Shown here piece after piece: positions 34,602 to 44,326 of a stretch of 64,000 bases of DNA (positions are counted from its first letter, which is position 1; each line of letters begins with the position of its first letter). The translations under genes were made by a program, and so were the position numbers. Location: contig CALAMI010000016.1 of NCBI GenBank assembly GCA_937925685.1, forward strand, positions 67,001 through 131,000, written 5' to 3'. Below the pieces are notes generated by a model that ran no database searches, was not told where the DNA came from, and saw only the letters and a program-made list of their open reading frames with translations. This DNA is from Candidatus Binatia bacterium. GTDB taxonomy: Bacteria; Desulfobacterota; Binatia; HRBIN30.

Positions 34602-36008
34602 TCAGCGAACAGGACGAGCCTTCCAAAAGTAATTGATATTACCTCCGCCCTGATGTAGCCGCCGAAAGGTGAGGCTGACGGGTTGTCCTACCTCCACTTC
34701 GCCTTCGGCGAAATCCGTCACCTGAAGATAGATTCGTCCCCCGCCATCGAGGTCGACCACTGCCATCGGTAACGGATGTTCGACGTTCGCGATCAGGTAA
34801 TCCAACGTATACGTAAAGATTGTCCCCTTGCGGCTTAACCGTACTTCCTCCATGTGACCGGCCTTGCGACAACCGATGCACACGGGAGCAAGGGGGTATT
34901 GAACCATCCCACAACTCTTGCACCGACAGCCATGCAAACGGGCGTTTTGGGTAAGCTCTTTGAACTCAAGGACGTTGGTGATAACCTCCCCCCCGCCTTC
35001 ATTTTCGTGAAAAAGCCCCCGGTACTTCAAATATTTTTGATAAGACGGCAGCGGTTGCTTGGCTGCCAGCCACTGGGACCAAGAGTTGCCCGCTCGACCC
35101 TCCGCCACAAGTGGCGTCGTGCGCAGCAAAACTGCCTCTGCGCCTTCAGCGAAAGCGGCCGCGACCACCCACTGGCCTGGTTCTGCCTGGTCTAGCACGG
35201 CTCCTAAAGCTAGCAGGGCCTCAGCGGCACCGGTGCTCCCAATTGCTGAGCTTACCAACGGGGCAAGTTGCTGCTTCGGGTCCAGCCCCAGTTTCCGCGC
35301 AAGATCAAAAGCAGCACGCGGCTCGGGGGCGTGGCAAGCCAAGTGGGTAATGTCTTTCGACCCCAAGCCATGTTCTGCCAGCAAGCTTCCGATCGCGTCG
35401 GCCATGTCCCGCACGTAGCCGTAAGTTTGTGAAAACTTGCCGGTGTGTGCGTCAACGAATGGGCTCGCCGTTGGGCGCCAGAAATACGTAAACTCCTCGC
35501 TAATGCTTGCGCTTCCGACAATTTCTGCGGTCACATGATCGCGCGCAATCACGACGGCGGCGCTTGCGTCACCGAGTAGACCCTCGCACTCTGATTCTGG
35601 GACTGCGGCCCTCGATTCGCCCGCAGCGACCAGACACGACTCGACCCTGCCGCTCTTGACCATTGCATCAGCAACTATGAGCGCGTGGAGTCCGGCACGT
35701 GCTGAACCCCCAAAGTCGCAGCAAAGCGTTTTTCGAGGGAGATCGCACACGGTAGCGATGAACGCGGAAAGCTGCTTTTCAAGATAAGGCGCGCTCGTAC
35801 TCGCAAACAGAACCCCGCCGGGCACCTGGAAAACAGACTCCACGCAACTCAGGGATGCCTCCACTGCGAGCGTGAAGGCATCTTCATCGTAGTTGGCCAC
35901 GGCAATTTCCCCTGCCTCTGAAGGAGCTCGGCCCCAAGCCCGCGCTATTTCTGCACGGCTCATCCGCAAGCGCGGAACATAAGCACAGTACTTAGCGATG
36001 CCGACCAC
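34602..36008 (-). CDS. HMG-CoA synthase-like domain fused to a DUF35 (zinc ribbon/OB) domain
   Basis: 468 residues from GTG 36008 (GGAG upstream). Residues 1-340 have the thiolase-fold pattern of HMG-CoA synthase-like proteins: [12 protein letters not shown] at the start, ESCLVAAGESR, EGLLGDASAAVVIA, then CHAPEPRAAFDLARK. The catalytic Cys position reads DFGGSARAG (98-106), so Ala occupies the place expected for Cys; C96 and C97 lie just before it. The C-terminal part is DUF35: a zinc ribbon CRCKSCG...CIGC (about 361-380) followed by an OB fold. The thiolase gene is next downstream. The frame overlaps the 3' end of the FG-GAP gene by 17 bases. Condensation activity is therefore doubtful. Confidence 0.87.
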   Translation of the reverse strand: MVGIAKYCAYVPRLRMSRAEIARAWGRAPSEAGEIAVANYDEDAFTLAVEASLSCVESVFQVPGGVLFASTSAPYLEKQLSAFIATVCDLPRKTLCCDFGGSARAGLHALIVADAMVKSGRVESCLVAAGESRAAVPESECEGLLGDASAAVVIARDHVTAEIVGSASISEEFTYFWRPTASPFVDAHTGKFSQTYGYVRDMADAIGSLLAEHGLGSKDITHLACHAPEPRAAFDLARKLGLDPKQQLAPLVSSAIGSTGAAEALLALGAVLDQAEPGQWVVAAAFAEGAEAVLLRTTPLVAEGRAGNSWSQWLAAKQPLPSYQKYLKYRGLFHENEGGGEVITNVLEFKELTQNARLHGCRCKSCGMVQYPLAPVCIGCRKAGHMEEVRLSRKGTIFTYTLDYLIANVEHPLPMAVVDLDGGGRIYLQVTDFAEGEVEVGQPVSLTFRRLHQGGGNINYFWKARPVR

Positions 36009-37506
36009 GGCTCCGACCTGCGTTCCGCTTTCGAAAAACGGTTACAACACCCCACAGCAAGGGCAACTGCATTAACCACCACGCACCGTAGTTCGATGCC
36101 ACGACGTGGCACCCTTCTCCGCTCACGCACACGCCACCAGCAAAACACTTCGGGGTCGGCGTATCGGTTGGTCCCGGAGTCGAAGTAGGGACCCGGGTTC
36201 GAGTTGGTGTGGCGGTGAAGGTCTCCGTTGCGGTAGCTGTCGCCGTGGGGGTTTCTGTAGGTGTCGAGGTGGCGGTGGCCGATGGCGTGCGCGTTCGTGT
36301 AAAGGTGGGCGTCGTTGTGGGGGTGGGCGGCGGCTGGCTACTCAGTAGCGCTGTCAAAGAACCCCCTTCCCCGGCAACCAACACGTCTGGCCGCCCGTCA
36401 CCATCAAAGTCACTCGCAGCCACCAGCCGCGACCCAATCCCTAAGAGGCAGCGCCCAGTGGCAGGCTCTCGCCAATTACAAAGGTCACGAGCTTCACGCA
36501 ATGATTGTCCGTCGTTCATTAGGATCGCCAGGGTAGAAGAAGCCCCGCTGACTACTGCTGCATCCATGAGCCCGTCACGATTCCAATCCGCCACAACAAC
36601 ATCGCTAGGCTGGGGTAACGCCTCGGAAAGGGTGGCGCTCACCGCTGTGCCGAACGAGTAAGAGGCTTCTGGCGACCAGCGTCCCGGGAGCACAAGCACC
36701 AACCCTGTCGCACCTCCACCGACAACAACGACATCCAAAACCCCGTCCCCGTCCATGTCTCCTATTGCCATTCCGGTGGGAGCTACAACTGCAAAGCGCT
36801 GATCAGCACGGACAAAGGTTGGATAACCCTGCTCCGAAAGCCTATCCTGCAAGTAAACGGAAACGCTTCCCGTGGCGCGCGAGAGCGTGAAAATATCCAG
36901 CCGCCCGTCCAGATTGACGTCGCTAATTTGGATACGGGTGACCGGACCTTCATTATCGATCAAGGTTCCCACAACGAACCCAGTTAGCGTCCGGTACAGG
37001 ATAGTGATGAGGTTATCATTGCCACCACCCACCACGAGGTCGGCCTGTCCGTCCCGATTCATGTCGGCCACCCTGACAATTTGGGGGTCGCCTCCCACTT
37101 GCAGGGGGTCGCCCATGGGTACAAAGGTGCCATTACTTCCATTCAAAAGCACTGCAATTCCCGCATCTGTCGCCACTACGATGTCGGGGGCGCGATTGTT
37201 ATCCAGGTCGCCGGCGTCCACACCCCGCACCGTGCCACTGATCGTAAAAGTGCTACGGCTGATGGCGTTGAGACAATCTCCGAACGCGAAACGAGACCGA
37301 TCCACCAAGCCAACCACGGCCTGGTTCCCGGTGGCCTCGGAAAGCACCAGGTCGGTCGTACCATCCCGATTCAAATCTGATGATGCAACGCTGACGAAGC
37401 TACCGACAAAAGGGATGGTGCACACGACAAAGCCATTGCTGGCACCTGCCGATGTCGCCGTGACCAGAAGCGTCACCCACGAGACAACCACGACGCCTTT
37501 TCGCAC
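35992..37506 (-). other. Possible second product: third propeller starting at internal GTG
   Basis: GTG 37506 is in frame with the large FG-GAP reading frame, is preceded by the weak ribosome-site-like AAGCAGG, and opens with (M)[21 protein letters not shown], a good signal peptide. From here the frame would give a 504-residue secreted protein with seven FG-GAP repeats, one Thr/Pro linker and a GC-containing C-terminal tail. That layout matches the organisation of the upstream part. The reading frame is thus either a fusion of two tandem genes or a dual-start gene. Confidence 0.4.
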
Positions 37507-40464
37507 ACCCTGCTTTTGCGAGCAAAGACGGCGAATCCCCAACAACAAAAGCAGCGGCAATAAAGGGCCAACTCCGAACCATAACGACTTCCCACGACTC
37601 GGGCTCGTCAGCGCAATCGAGCATCCCCCTGGTGACAAATTCAGCGTACCGGGCTTCAAGGTCTTTGTGGGCGTGGCACTCGGCAGGGGAGTTGCCGAAC
37701 GCGTCCTTGTGGGGCTACCCGTGGGGGTAGGCGTTGAAGTTGCAGTCGGTGAAGGCGTCGGTGTTGCGGAACCCGTGGGTGTAGGCGTGCCGGTGTCAGT
37801 AGGAGTAGGTGTTGCGCGAGGGGTCGGGGTTGCCGGCGGGCGACTGCTTACCAACACGCTCACGCCGCCTCGCCCATTTCTTCCTCGGAGTCCCACCACA
37901 ACGTCAGCGATGCCGTCTCCATCGAGGTCGCTGACAGCAATGGATGAAGGTGATTGCCCGCGTAAATCCACCGGTAAAGTTGCAGCGCTAAAATTGCCGT
38001 CACGGCCAGCAAAAAAGAATAGCACCGTATCGCTTGCATCGTCAGCTAGCACGACGTCGTTCACGGCATCACGGTTGAAGTCTGCCGAACCAATGGCGAC
38101 TGGAAACGCAGCCGAAGCGCCTCCCACAGGAGGGATTTGGAGACGTTGTCGGAGGCGATAAGTCACACCTCTCCCACTGGAGCGCTGCCCTGAAATGATG
38201 CTCAGCTCGCCACGGCCCCCCACGGTAGACACGGCTAAATCGGGCACGTCATCGTTAGGTTCGTAAAAATCAGTCGCCACTGCGGTGGGGTCTCCGGACA
38301 GGGGAAAAGGTGTGAGAGGACGCATTCCCCCGGTTCCAGCTGGGCATACTTGCATCGAGGGGGTTACGGCGGATGGTTGCTGTTCAAGAACCACGAAGTC
38401 CGCCGTTGTACGGCTGACCACCCCTAAATCCAAGCGACCATCAACGTTGAGGTCGCGTGCCAACACAAAGTCCGATGGGCGCCCGACATTGAGCGCACAA
38501 GGAGCTAGGTAATCTCGCCGGCCCGTGGGCGAACGAACAAGGATCACAACTTCGTTCGCCAGGTCACCCGGCTTGCCAGCCACCAAATCAAGGGATCCGT
38601 CCCCGTTAACGTCGGCAAGTTCCAAACTCCCAATGCCAGCCGAACGAATCAACGGATTTTGCGGGTGGCCTGAAAAGTTGCCTCGTCCGTCTCCGTAAAA
38701 CAAGAAAATTCCTTCAAGACCTGCAACAGCGAGATCCAGGCGCCCATCGGCGTCAAGATCGCCCGCACGCACAGCCACGGGTCGAAGGAGAGAGATTTGC
38801 TCCAACCGGTTCTGCCACCCCAACACATCGCAAGCAGTTGGCCCTTCCCTTCGGATGTTGGTGAAGAACACGACGAGGCGGTCACCGTCAAAGTCGGCGG
38901 CGGCAATGTCGGGGCTGCCGTTACGATCGAAGTCACCTGTATCAACGGCAACCACTGCACCAACCGAACCGGGTTGGCCGGGATCACTGGTATTACACAC
39001 GGTAAATGGTGCTGTGGGAATCGGGGTGGGGGAAGGGGTCGCCGTGAGGGTCGGTGTGAGCGTGGGGGGAGTGGTCGGCGTGGGGCTCCCCGCCGCTGGG
39101 GTAGCCAGAGATGGAGTCGGGGTCGGAGTGTTTTCCGTTGGACTCACGCCTGTAGTATTCAAGAAGAGACGTAGAGACTCTCCATCTTGAGACAAAGCAA
39201 GGATATCGGCTCTCTGGTCGGCGTTGACGTCCGCCACCATCACTGTGGCCAAGTTCCCCAAAAGGCCCCCGATTTGCTTTTGAAACCCATTTTCGTCGGG
39301 CAAAACAGGAGGCGGCGCCGGGGGACCGGCATCGAAACACAAAACGCTCGGCTGGCGACAAAGGAAGTTAATTCCGATACCACCAGCTGCGTTGGTCACA
39401 ATGAGGTCAAGCTTCCCATCCCCGTCCAGGTCTCCAGCCGCCAGGCCTACCGAATCGACCTCGACAAAGTCTGTGTCCCCGACGCTAAAGCCTCCCGACC
39501 CGTCGCTGATCAACAATGTAACCCGAGCATCCACGTCCACTCCGGTCACAACGGCAACGTCATCGAAGGTAGCATCCCCACCAAAATCGCCCACTGCCAA
39601 TCCGCCCGGCCGCTCACCGACACTGAAGACACGTGCGGCTTCGAAGGTGCCGTCGCCCCGCCCCAACAAAACCGCCACACGATTGCCATCGCGACTGCTG
39701 ATCGCCAGGTCAACGGCATTATCTTGATTAAAGAAGCCGAATCCAATCTGATAATTCCCCCGCGTACCCGCTCCGGTCGACACACTAGGAGTAGGAAAGT
39801 CTACGAACCGGCCGTTCCCTCGGCCTTTGAGCAACCGAACAGAACTCGAACTCAAAACCGCTAGGTCAAGGAGGCGATCGCCATCCAGGTCCGCCGCCAC
39901 CACGTCCACCGGCGTAGGGTCGACGGGGAAGCCGTCTAAGAACTCGTCCTCTGCCTCGAACAGTAGATCGCTGCCCTGGAGCAAAACGCTCACCGAGCTG
40001 GCTGTGCGATTGACGGTAACAATATCGACCCTGCGGTCACGGTTAAAATCGCCCAGGACCACCGCAACTGGTCCGTCGGCCGTTTCGGCAGTATCGCTCT
40101 CCTCAAACTGCCCAGCCCCTCGATTCAAGAAGACCCGAACCTCGTTAGCCTCCGGTTCGGTCACGACAATGTCTGGCTGTTGATCTTCGTTTAAGTCGCC
40201 TATAGCAAAGGCTCGTGGACCAGGGTCTGAGCCAGCAGAGACTTCTAGCCTCGCTCCTGGCCGAAACGAGAGCTTGGCCTCTGCGCAGGGCGCGCTCGCG
40301 CCCAAACCCACAGCTAAAACGGCGAAGACATGCAGGTAGCGAGGAGGACAACGTTGGTGCCACGTCTTTTTCAGAAAAAAAACAGCGCAGGCCGAGGTAG
40401 CAAGGAAATCTTGCACTGCCCTCGGCCCGCGCCGCCCAGACAAGAAGGACGATGGCACTCTCAA
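35992..40464 (-). CDS. Giant FG-GAP/VCBS repeat protein (three sets of seven repeats)
   Basis: The open frame spans 1490 codons. I count 21 FG-GAP repeats of the type D-x-[DN]-x-D-G-x-x-D-[IVL], for example [15 protein letters not shown]. They fall in three groups of seven, each followed by a Thr/Pro-rich linker, so three seven-bladed beta-propellers with calcium loops are expected. Residues about 955-986 ([19 protein letters not shown]) are a C-terminal-type hydrophobic tail after GGCS, and residues about 987-1010 look like a signal peptide. The protein ends with a second tail (GEGCHVV then [11 protein letters not shown] then RKR). No canonical start is convincing: 40464 is TTG, and the first natural signal peptide begins at CTG 40374. 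Surface or envelope location is likely, the ligand unknown. Confidence 0.75.
36150..36337 (-). repeat. Thr/Pro linker-coding low-complexity tract 3 of the FG-GAP gene
   Basis: Degenerate ACN-CCN codon repeats that encode a Thr/Pro/Ala/Ser-rich linker of about 62 residues between the third propeller and the final tail. Such linkers are flexible spacers. The opposite strand reads as Val/Gly-rich, which creates long false open frames. Confidence 0.8.
37511..37632 (-). other. Internal sorting-tail-like segment (Cys, hydrophobic helix, Arg-Arg)
   Basis: Encodes [15 protein letters not shown], then [20 protein letters not shown] Gly-Cys motif, a hydrophobic helix and a short basic end is the plan of MYXO-CTERM-type tails, which are normally at the extreme C-terminus. 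Here it is followed without a stop by a signal-peptide-like stretch. The tail at the real end of the same frame (GEGCHVV...RKR) has the same plan. Confidence 0.5.
37662..37841 (-). repeat. Thr/Pro linker-coding low-complexity tract 2 of the FG-GAP gene
   Basis: About 60 codons of imperfect TPTPT/SPTAT units between the second propeller and the internal sorting-tail-like segment. It is the same kind of tract as the other two linkers but not identical in sequence. Confidence 0.8.
39003..39141 (-). repeat. Thr/Pro linker-coding low-complexity tract 1 of the FG-GAP gene
   Basis: About 46 codons of Thr/Pro-rich sequence ([19 protein letters not shown] and similar) joining the first and second propellers. 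Confidence 0.8.
40375..40432 (-). terminator. Strong intrinsic terminator downstream of groEL
   Basis: Read on the minus strand, GCGCGGGCCGAGG (40432-40420) pairs with CCTCGGCCTGCGC (40397-40385). This gives 13 base pairs including one G-U. The loop of 22 bases holds a small inner hairpin GCAAG/CTTGC. Two bases later come eight T (40382-40375). It lies 70-130 bases after the groEL stop at 40504. The same bases lie inside the 5' part of the open FG-GAP reading frame. Confidence 0.88.
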
Positions 40465-42523: not shown

Positions 42524-42532
42524 TTTCAAGGG
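42524..42532 (-). promoter_or_regulatory. Possible sigma32-like -35 element before groES, overlapping the dnaA stop
   Basis: On the minus strand the sequence is CCCTTGAAA, matching the -35 part of heat-shock (sigma32) promoters. It contains the dnaA TGA. No good CCCCAT-type -10 is seen at the right spacing, so the assignment is weak. Confidence 0.25.
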
Positions 42533-43908
42533 CGCTGGAGCGCCACACCTTCCTTTGGGTGCCCTAACAATTGGCGCTCAAGGGAATCAATCTTCGCCCC
42601 CCAAGCTGGCTCTCTTTTGCGTCGCTGCTCTGCAGCCCGAACGGCGTACAAAACGCTGGTATGGTCGCGCCCGCCAAATTCCGCAGCGATTTGCGAAAGA
42701 GATGCCCTGACTAACGAGCGACACAAGTACATGGCGGCCTGACGCGCTTGGGAAATCCGCGTGTCTCGAGCAGATCCAATGAGATCCTCCACCGTGACTT
42801 GAAAATCTCGGGCCACAGCGTCGCGAATCTGCGCTATGGTCAACGAGCGCCCCACTGGTGCGATTCGCTCGGGGCCTAAAAGTTGATCAACCAGCTCCGC
42901 ACTCAGGGTTCGCTGCATCATTTCTACAAAAGCCAAAATGCGATTGAGCCCCCCTTCTACTTCGCGCACGCTTGCACCGCAACGAGCCACGATAGCCCTA
43001 AGAATCGAATCTGGAAGGTTGTAGCCCCGGCATGCCGCCTTGCGCCGGAGAATTTCCACCCGCATTTCCTGAGTGGGGGGCGTCACGTCCGCAATCAGAC
43101 CGCTCTCAAAGCGACTCCGGAGCCGAGACTCGAATCGAGCCATCGCACTTGGAGGTTGGTCCGAAGTCAAAACCACCTGCTTCCCGGCCCCCACCAGGCA
43201 TTCGAAGGTATGAAAAAACTCCTCCTGCGTTCGCTCTTTTCCAGCGAGAAATTGGATGTCGTCCAAGATCAGAACGTCCAGTTCCCGGAAGCGATCTCGA
43301 AACTCAACCATTTTGTCGCTTCGCAGGGCGTGGATCATCATATTCGTGAACATCTCGGCCGATAGACAGGCCAGGCGCAGATTTCGCCGCGCGCGTAACG
43401 CCTCGTGGCCAATGGCATTCACTAGATGCGTTTTGCCAAGACCGACACCGCCCCACACAAAGAGTGGATTGAACTGCCGGCCCGGCTCAGCAGCCACACG
43501 GCGCCCGGCCGATGCTGCCAGCTCGTTCGTTGGCCCAACTACGAACGAGCCAAAATCGTACCCATCAAGCAGCCGTCCAACACGCAATAAAGAATTGAGT
43601 GCCCTCTGGGTTCGCTTCGGTCTCGATTTTGCGACGTCGCCAACCGAAGTCCCTCCTTGCCCACACCGCGGCTCGGCTCCCAGGGTCACCTCGCATCTGA
43701 CCCCCGGCCCCAAACGCTCCCGCAAGGTCGCTTCGATTGTGCCCAGTAAGTTACGGCCGAGCCATTCGCGGTGGAATTGGCTGGGTACTTCCAACCATAC
43801 TGCATCTCCTTGTCTCGACCAACATACTGGCTCGATCCACAAGGTAAAATTCCGTTCTCCAATCACGTGTCGCAAGTGCGTCAACGCTTTCCACAATTCC
43901 CCATCCAT
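42526..43908 (-). CDS. dnaA: Chromosomal replication initiator DnaA
   Basis: 460 residues from the ATG at 43908 (AGGGTGG upstream). An in-frame extension to 43992 is not conserved-looking. Domain I has LWKALTHLRHVIGERNFTLWIEP and domain II is short. Domain III (AAA+) has NPLFVWGGVGLGKTHL (Walker A), LDVLILDDIQFLAGKERTQEE (Walker B region) and sensor motifs. Domain IV, which binds DnaA boxes, has ARQAAMYLCRSLVRASLSQIAAEFGGRDHTSVL (around residues 405-440). The neighbours are unusual: groES-groEL follow, and no dnaN, recF or gyrB is adjacent. No DnaA box was found in the ~420 bases upstream. Confidence 0.97.
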   Translation of the reverse strand: MDGELWKALTHLRHVIGERNFTLWIEPVCWSRQGDAVWLEVPSQFHREWLGRNLLGTIEATLRERLGPGVRCEVTLGAEPRCGQGGTSVGDVAKSRPKRTQRALNSLLRVGRLLDGYDFGSFVVGPTNELAASAGRRVAAEPGRQFNPLFVWGGVGLGKTHLVNAIGHEALRARRNLRLACLSAEMFTNMMIHALRSDKMVEFRDRFRELDVLILDDIQFLAGKERTQEEFFHTFECLVGAGKQVVLTSDQPPSAMARFESRLRSRFESGLIADVTPPTQEMRVEILRRKAACRGYNLPDSILRAIVARCGASVREVEGGLNRILAFVEMMQRTLSAELVDQLLGPERIAPVGRSLTIAQIRDAVARDFQVTVEDLIGSARDTRISQARQAAMYLCRSLVRASLSQIAAEFGGRDHTSVLYAVRAAEQRRKREPAWGAKIDSLERQLLGHPKEGVALQRP

Positions 43909-44326
43909 CTGCGCGCCACCCTTTGAAACTTCTGCCTTGAGTTGTCGGTTCGCGCAGTGCCATCCCGTCAACGAGAACCCACCATCCTCCATTCTCCCAA
44001 TGGGAGACTTTCTCCGCCCAGTCCACCGCTCACACTCCCTCGTTCACACGCCCACGCCTCCCCACAGCCTAAGCCAAGGGGCAGTGCGCTCGACCGACCC
44101 ATTCATTCGTTAACCCCGAGTGGAAAGTCTTTGCTCGACTCGAGTAGTAGGCAGCGTCCAGTAGTGGCACCGGCTGACTGAGTCAACAACCTGCACACGG
44201 CACGTCTAGGTGCAGAACAGATCGAAAGCTTTTTCGTTCGACCACTATCGAATTGCGATACGGCCGCACTCCTCGGCGAACCCGAGGTCGCGCATCAGAG
44301 CGAAATTTCGTAGTTTTTGAAGCTAC
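43909..44326. other. Gene-free stretch upstream of dnaA
   Basis: About 420 bases between the dnaA start and the stop of the VKOR-DsbA gene. It must carry the dnaA promoter, which I cannot place. It contains the 15-base palindrome at 43993-44007 and a weak stem around 44225 (CGAAA...TTTCG). I looked for TTATCCACA-like DnaA boxes on both strands and saw none. Confidence 0.6.
43993..44007. promoter_or_regulatory. Perfect palindrome upstream of dnaA (operator candidate)
   Basis: TCTCCCA-A-TGGGAGA is a perfect seven-base inverted repeat with a one-base centre, 85 bases before the dnaA ATG. Its size fits a dimeric repressor site. The binding protein is unknown. Confidence 0.45.

Follow-up and report, generated by a model that had tools for sequence, protein, structure and literature searches.

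A single gene of a Candidatus Binatia bacterium appears to encode two exported, tail-bearing proteins in one reading frame, and its product is probably a precursor that is exported and then split into two proteins by a myxosortase-like protease and signal peptidase. The gene lies in a 64,000-nucleotide stretch, here called the window (contig CALAMI010000016.1 of assembly GCA_937925685.1, positions 67,001 to 131,000). On the minus strand, 1490 codons at 35992-40464 form one open frame with no stop between its halves, A and B. The frame encodes, in order, a signal peptide, the FG-GAP part A, a sorting tail, a signal-peptide-like stretch, the FG-GAP part B, and a second sorting tail. A first-pass annotation of the DNA had drawn attention to a tail and a signal-like stretch in mid-frame and to the shared plan of the C-terminus; both observations hold, with the tail at residues 946-979, the signal-like stretch at residues 987-1008, and no stop between them. 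This mid-frame arrangement is more than chance because it recurs in G001 and G002, two other genomes of the genus (g1; the window's genome is G000), and in G007, which group codes place in another family, each time within a single frame that also encodes A and B.

The internal tail has the layout of MYXO-CTERM (TIGR03901), namely an invariant Cys, a transmembrane helix, and an Arg-rich end, here represented by GGC, a hydrophobic stretch, and RR. According to the portion of PMC11980579 used here, such a tail holds an exported protein in the inner membrane and is cut by a myxosortase next to its Cys, which is presumably lipidated. The true C-terminus of the frame shows the same Cys/helix/Arg plan; the internal tail ends 511 residues ahead of the stop and, unlike the second tail, is not extreme C-terminal. 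The second signal-like stretch begins about 10 residues past the internal Arg-Arg and is opened by an in-frame GTG (residue 987, 37504-37506). It ends in ATSAGA, with a possible cut AGA^S at residues 1008/1009 (37441/37440). By our own rule, which is not a trained predictor, a basic n-region, a hydrophobic core, and a small-X-Ala site are all present, some 1000 residues into the frame and not at a protein N-terminus. The junction plan is kept among the fused loci: a Cys motif, a helix, a loop with 2-9 basic residues, a second helix, and small-X-Ala. Net length differences at the junction leave the frame intact on both sides, and the codon gaps in the junction alignments are a product of protein-level alignment and add no independent evidence. 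A different reading frame at the junction was considered and rejected, as the remaining two frames contain no continuing tail or signal.

Part B was searched in 58 related genomes, and an alignment of B was then searched in the 15 genomes of the order. The alignment search gave B orthologs in 10 of the 15 (E ≤ 1e-119), while the five genomes of family f4 gave weaker matches only (best 7e-48) or none at 1e-40. At four of the ten orthologous loci (G000, G001, G002, and G007), A and B are read in a single open frame; in G002 the contig ends before the A end of the frame is reached. All three genus genomes examined are fused, and the B parts of the other two are 70% and 52% identical to the window's. 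The G002 contig is identical in DNA, over the shared part, to the public HRbin30 contig BEIG01000118.1; the order HRBin30 is listed as a member of Binatota in the part of PMC8262859 consulted. Among the 30 loci listed in a scan of public contigs, only HRbin30 is close (69% identity), the other 29 being 23-33% identical. G007 has the identical type of fusion with a shorter junction, WLRRAVGSRIFLPILLLCSLAGSSFA^QG.

A and B are separate in six genomes of the order (G003, G004, G005, G006, G008, and G010). In all six, A ends with a tail and a stop, and B can start at an overlapping ATG or GTG; G005 has a second ATG one base past the stop of A. These data make it well supported that A-B represents a natural in-frame fusion of overlapping genes. 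The first-pass proposal that tandem genes had lost the stop between them is therefore borne out as an evolutionary event by the six relatives with overlapping genes, and fails as a sequencing error, since three genus genomes are fused, and the contig of one (G002) equals that of HRbin30 over the shared part. The refuting condition that it named, relatives that always have two separate genes, is contradicted by the four fused loci. We infer that separate genes were the older state; counting changes alone, fission in the unfused relatives may also have occurred. The trees allow either one fusion event at the locus or two. The tree of B gives no clear branching, and a tree of two downstream neighbors (8 genomes) splits g1 and G007 from the rest. 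DnaA, tested with G004 left out because only its second DnaA was found, rejects neither a clade of g1 and G007 (approximately unbiased test, p = 0.163) nor a clade of family f1 (p = 0.286).

Tails of this kind occur across the order. The Cys is invariant in 20/20 chosen tails, and a model of these 20 matches 15/15 order genomes versus 0/43 others of the class (E ≤ 0.001). In the tail searches, no more than 121 first-look candidates were scored in each genome, and in Minicystis 150 of 347; all counts refer to the matches listed. Of 63 listed matches in the order, 57 lie at or within 16 residues of the stop and six are internal: four at the A-B locus, one in an unrelated gene of G008, and one weak case on contig C7 of the window's genome. 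None of the 53 listed MYXO-CTERM matches in the complete chromosome of Minicystis rosea (Myxococcota) is internal. The MYXO-CTERM model matched 10/20 clade tails at E ≤ 1, with 3.5e-5 as the best value; for the window's own internal tail, the only match was JDVT-CTERM, at 0.11. The G008 gene (G008:C30, L202:4102-7164) has 1016 codons that encode a signal peptide, DUF5122 repeats (Pfam), a tail, a second signal peptide, a second part, and a final tail. Its junction reads GGCTVV..RRARPR, then ALAMLVPLLSAARASA^APP, and the gene ends in its own tail. In the C7 case, a tail at 335623-335724 is followed by a signal-like stretch and a subtilase-like gene (L201:3727-5899), with Pfam Peptidase_S8 found only in a piece in another frame. 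The G001 counterpart has TAG between the parts, and the second gene shows frame breaks in both species; the C7 gene may be decaying or misassembled.

A myxosortase-like CPBP protease, which the first-pass annotation had suggested looking for, has a candidate in the genome. Of three CPBP proteases, the one at C8:205399-205701 resembles myxosortases, scoring 109.7 bits with MrtP (250 needed) and 100.1 bits with MrtC (195 needed). The CPBP protease of the sister genome G001 reaches 100.5 bits with Mrt_core (NF040914), whose cut-off of 100 is exceeded in 8/58 genomes. Matches of at least 90 bits occur in 14/15 order genomes versus 1/43 others of the class; that one, G016, has a protease match without a tail match.

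We propose that an ancestral A-B pair, encoding two exported, tail-anchored FG-GAP proteins, became one gene via in-frame fusion. The junction has no conserved start codon. Translation into one precursor is the simplest interpretation. The first signal would export A, after which the helix of the internal tail would stop transfer, with its Arg cluster remaining on the cytoplasmic side. What used to be the signal peptide of B would then form the other arm of a hairpin in the membrane and export B, which the last tail would anchor. Signal peptidase I would cut past this arm, and the myxosortase-like CPBP protease would cut each tail at its Cys, which would probably be lipidated first. The hairpin of about 60 residues would be lost, and A and B would remain as separate anchored proteins made in equal numbers. 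We infer the topology, both cuts, lipidation, surface location, and all other steps after translation from sequence features; cutting of the product in two, the other alternative of the first-pass annotation, is plausible and fits the kept Cys motif and small-X-Ala sites. A broader idea, to which we give somewhat less than even odds, is that this polyprotein format is recurrent. Overlapping genes for tail-anchored proteins would have fused repeatedly, with the tail-signal hairpin serving as a removable two-protease spacer that fixes a 1:1 output of two surface proteins per translation event, and the format would have arisen at least twice in one Binatota order (the A-B locus and G008:C30).

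Several observations weigh against this explanation or limit its support. Small-X-Ala follows the core at 6/6 internal junctions versus 54/200 internal hydrophobic cores (from 33 mechanically chosen window ORFs), an excess that suggests a cut with modest support because three of the six junctions are orthologs; the 54/200 baseline is also loose. The first small-X-Ala site taken by the script often differs from the site chosen by alignment to B (VTA rather than AGA in G000). The linker and second signal change fastest within the fused gene, with a ratio of nonsynonymous to synonymous differences (pN/pS) of 0.68-0.81 among the three genus members, this and the other ratios being rough as silent sites are near saturation. 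An AlphaFold model of the hairpin plus B, built from two sequences, has a mean predicted local distance difference test score of 44.7, which is low confidence. The whole window protein has no MYXO-CTERM match at E ≤ 1, and the C8 protease scores 96.7-97.8 bits with Mrt_core, just under the cut-off. Weak Mrt_core matches also appear in 7/14 control genomes, none above the cut-off. Tail and protease co-occur almost as a single clade, from which the tail model was itself built, and because the pattern is nearly one clade it is only suggestive of a link between the two. The examined stretches of G003 and G006 lack the KAS III-like and thiolase neighbors found at the other loci.

The most serious competing explanation is that the fusion is never cut. 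The product would then be one polypeptide, a two-headed inner-membrane protein with the hairpin as a permanent anchor. Its sequence proves no cleavage, and a hairpin whose loop carries 2-9 Arg/Lys is a stable topology. However, the Cys motif and small-X-Ala are kept even though the linker and second signal are only 23-47% identical among genus members, and a plain anchor needs neither; the genome also holds a candidate tail protease. We therefore regard an uncut protein as unlikely. Still less probable is that B is made mostly from its own internal start (GTG987, or ATG827 of the G002 frame), with the fused form as a by-product. The in-frame GTG in G000 and ATG in G002 agree with such a start, as does the fact that unfused B genes begin at the stop of A. 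The first-pass annotation was right that a GTG opens the signal-like stretch, but its role as a start codon is not upheld: the fused loci compared share no ATG or GTG at the junction, and in G001 and G007 the interval from the Arg pair to the second signal's hydrophobic core contains neither, only TTG. The Shine-Dalgarno match is weak at GTG987 (3/6) and covers 1-2/6 at the G007 TTG. Moreover, without a stop, ribosomes on A read on into B.

A neutral fusion, in which the junction or B has lost its function, would account for the rapid change of the linker and second signal. Against this, B is constrained (pN/pS 0.24-0.45), as is the terminal tail (0.45-0.63), and the internal tail changes at a similar pace to the latter (0.44-0.52). 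The fusion is also common to three species whose B parts have diverged to 52-70% identity with the window's, so that neutrality seems very improbable. That an assembly or sequencing error removed a stop is hardly credible. The genome is a draft of 51 contigs, and its C7 case sits among frame breaks, but all three genus assemblies have the open frame, as does a genome from a different family, and the junction sequences differ. Error as the source of the fusion was rejected on the open frames of G001, G002, and G007. Cleavage of an exported precursor is the reading that we prefer.

A two-protein precursor cut after export is rarely described in bacteria. One case is Bradyrhizobium fbcH, whose cytochrome b/c1 precursor is cut at an internal signal peptide; like A-B as proposed, it is a bacterial two-protein precursor divided by signal peptidase, but it has no sorting tail and yields a respiratory enzyme. 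Among the matches listed in the open-licence literature, which include viral, animal, and parasite papers, no bacterial precursor with an internal signal was found. Searches of the same literature, partly aimed elsewhere, gave no description of a conserved tail-signal fusion among the matches listed.

The first-pass remark that a polyprotein-like surface system would be new was too strong. In the portion of PMC11980579 drawn on here, internal MYXO-CTERM tags in ORFs are reported "in rare cases", and MXAN_5598 is named as a possible gene fusion. As in A-B, its tail lies inside a longer ORF, which the authors read as a possible two-gene fusion with a processed N-terminal part. Its C-terminal part comprises an outer-membrane barrel and an OmpA domain, with no second sorting tail described in that portion, whereas both halves of A-B are tail-bearing FG-GAP proteins with relatives in which the genes are separate. 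In the Myxococcus xanthus traA-traB operon, a four-base overlap joins the end of the tail-bearing gene to the following gene, which is also the arrangement of the unfused A-B relatives, but the two genes are not fused and their domains are unrelated, according to the part of PMC3325183 consulted. The system resembles the myxosortases MrtX, MrtC, and MrtP with MYXO-CTERM in its Cys, helix, and Arg-rich tail and in having a CPBP protease with an Mrt_core match in the same genome. It differs in phylum, in having tail and protease below curated cut-offs, and in having one tail internal. Our analysis adds a conserved fusion with unfused overlapping relatives, two tail-bearing halves, one further example in an unrelated gene, and occurrence in another phylum.

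Should both arms of the hairpin be cut, A-B would be a natural example of one precursor being divided by two membrane proteases into a pair of surface proteins. A C-terminal sorting tail would then work in mid-protein, which would have a bearing on the topology rules of stop-transfer and signal sequences placed back to back, and a myxosortase/MYXO-CTERM-like pairing would extend to Binatota. The relatives with separate genes offer natural controls. In annotation, the middle of such proteins would otherwise be labelled as ordinary transmembrane helices.

Table 1. Parts of the fused A-B gene, in window coordinates.
Feature	Position	Strand	Basis or remark
Whole fused reading frame A-B	35992..40464	-	1490 codons + stop; start codon uncertain; Pfam FG-GAP_3 2.1e-86, 11 stretches
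N-terminal signal-peptide-like stretch before KLSF, residues 42-63	40276..40341	-	Sequence; by-eye comparison with G001 N-terminus
Part A: FG-GAP regions and Thr-Pro-rich linkers	37630..40275	-	Pfam; separate gene A in 6/10 loci
Internal sorting tail, residues 946-979: GGC motif, hydrophobic helix, Arg-Arg; Cys948 at 37621-37623	37528..37629	-	
Post-tail signal-peptide-like stretch, GTG987 to AGA site, residues 987-1008	37441..37506	-	
Part B: FG-GAP domain, residues 1009-1376	36337..37440	-	Two Cys invariant in 10/10 aligned relatives
C-terminal sorting tail GEGC..hydrophobic..Arg-rich, residues 1450-1490	35995..36117	-	

At the other end of the gene, window positions 40276-40464 contain no in-frame ATG upstream of the N-terminal signal peptide, and the start is GTG or TTG, for example the GTG at 40458. 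A run of eight T upstream of the N-terminal signal core raises a start-codon or indel question that is separate from the junction.

By Pfam labels, the genes adjoining the A-B pair encode a KAS III-like protein with an OB fold, a thiolase, a chaperonin, and DnaA. The KAS III-like and thiolase genes lie 3' of B in 8/10 loci, the window included. Among the nine stretches from relatives, DnaA is present in five and the chaperonin in two. The window's genome has two DnaA-like genes, one at window positions 42526-43992 and one at G000:C43:34537-35526, and at least two DnaA matches occur in 31/58 genomes.

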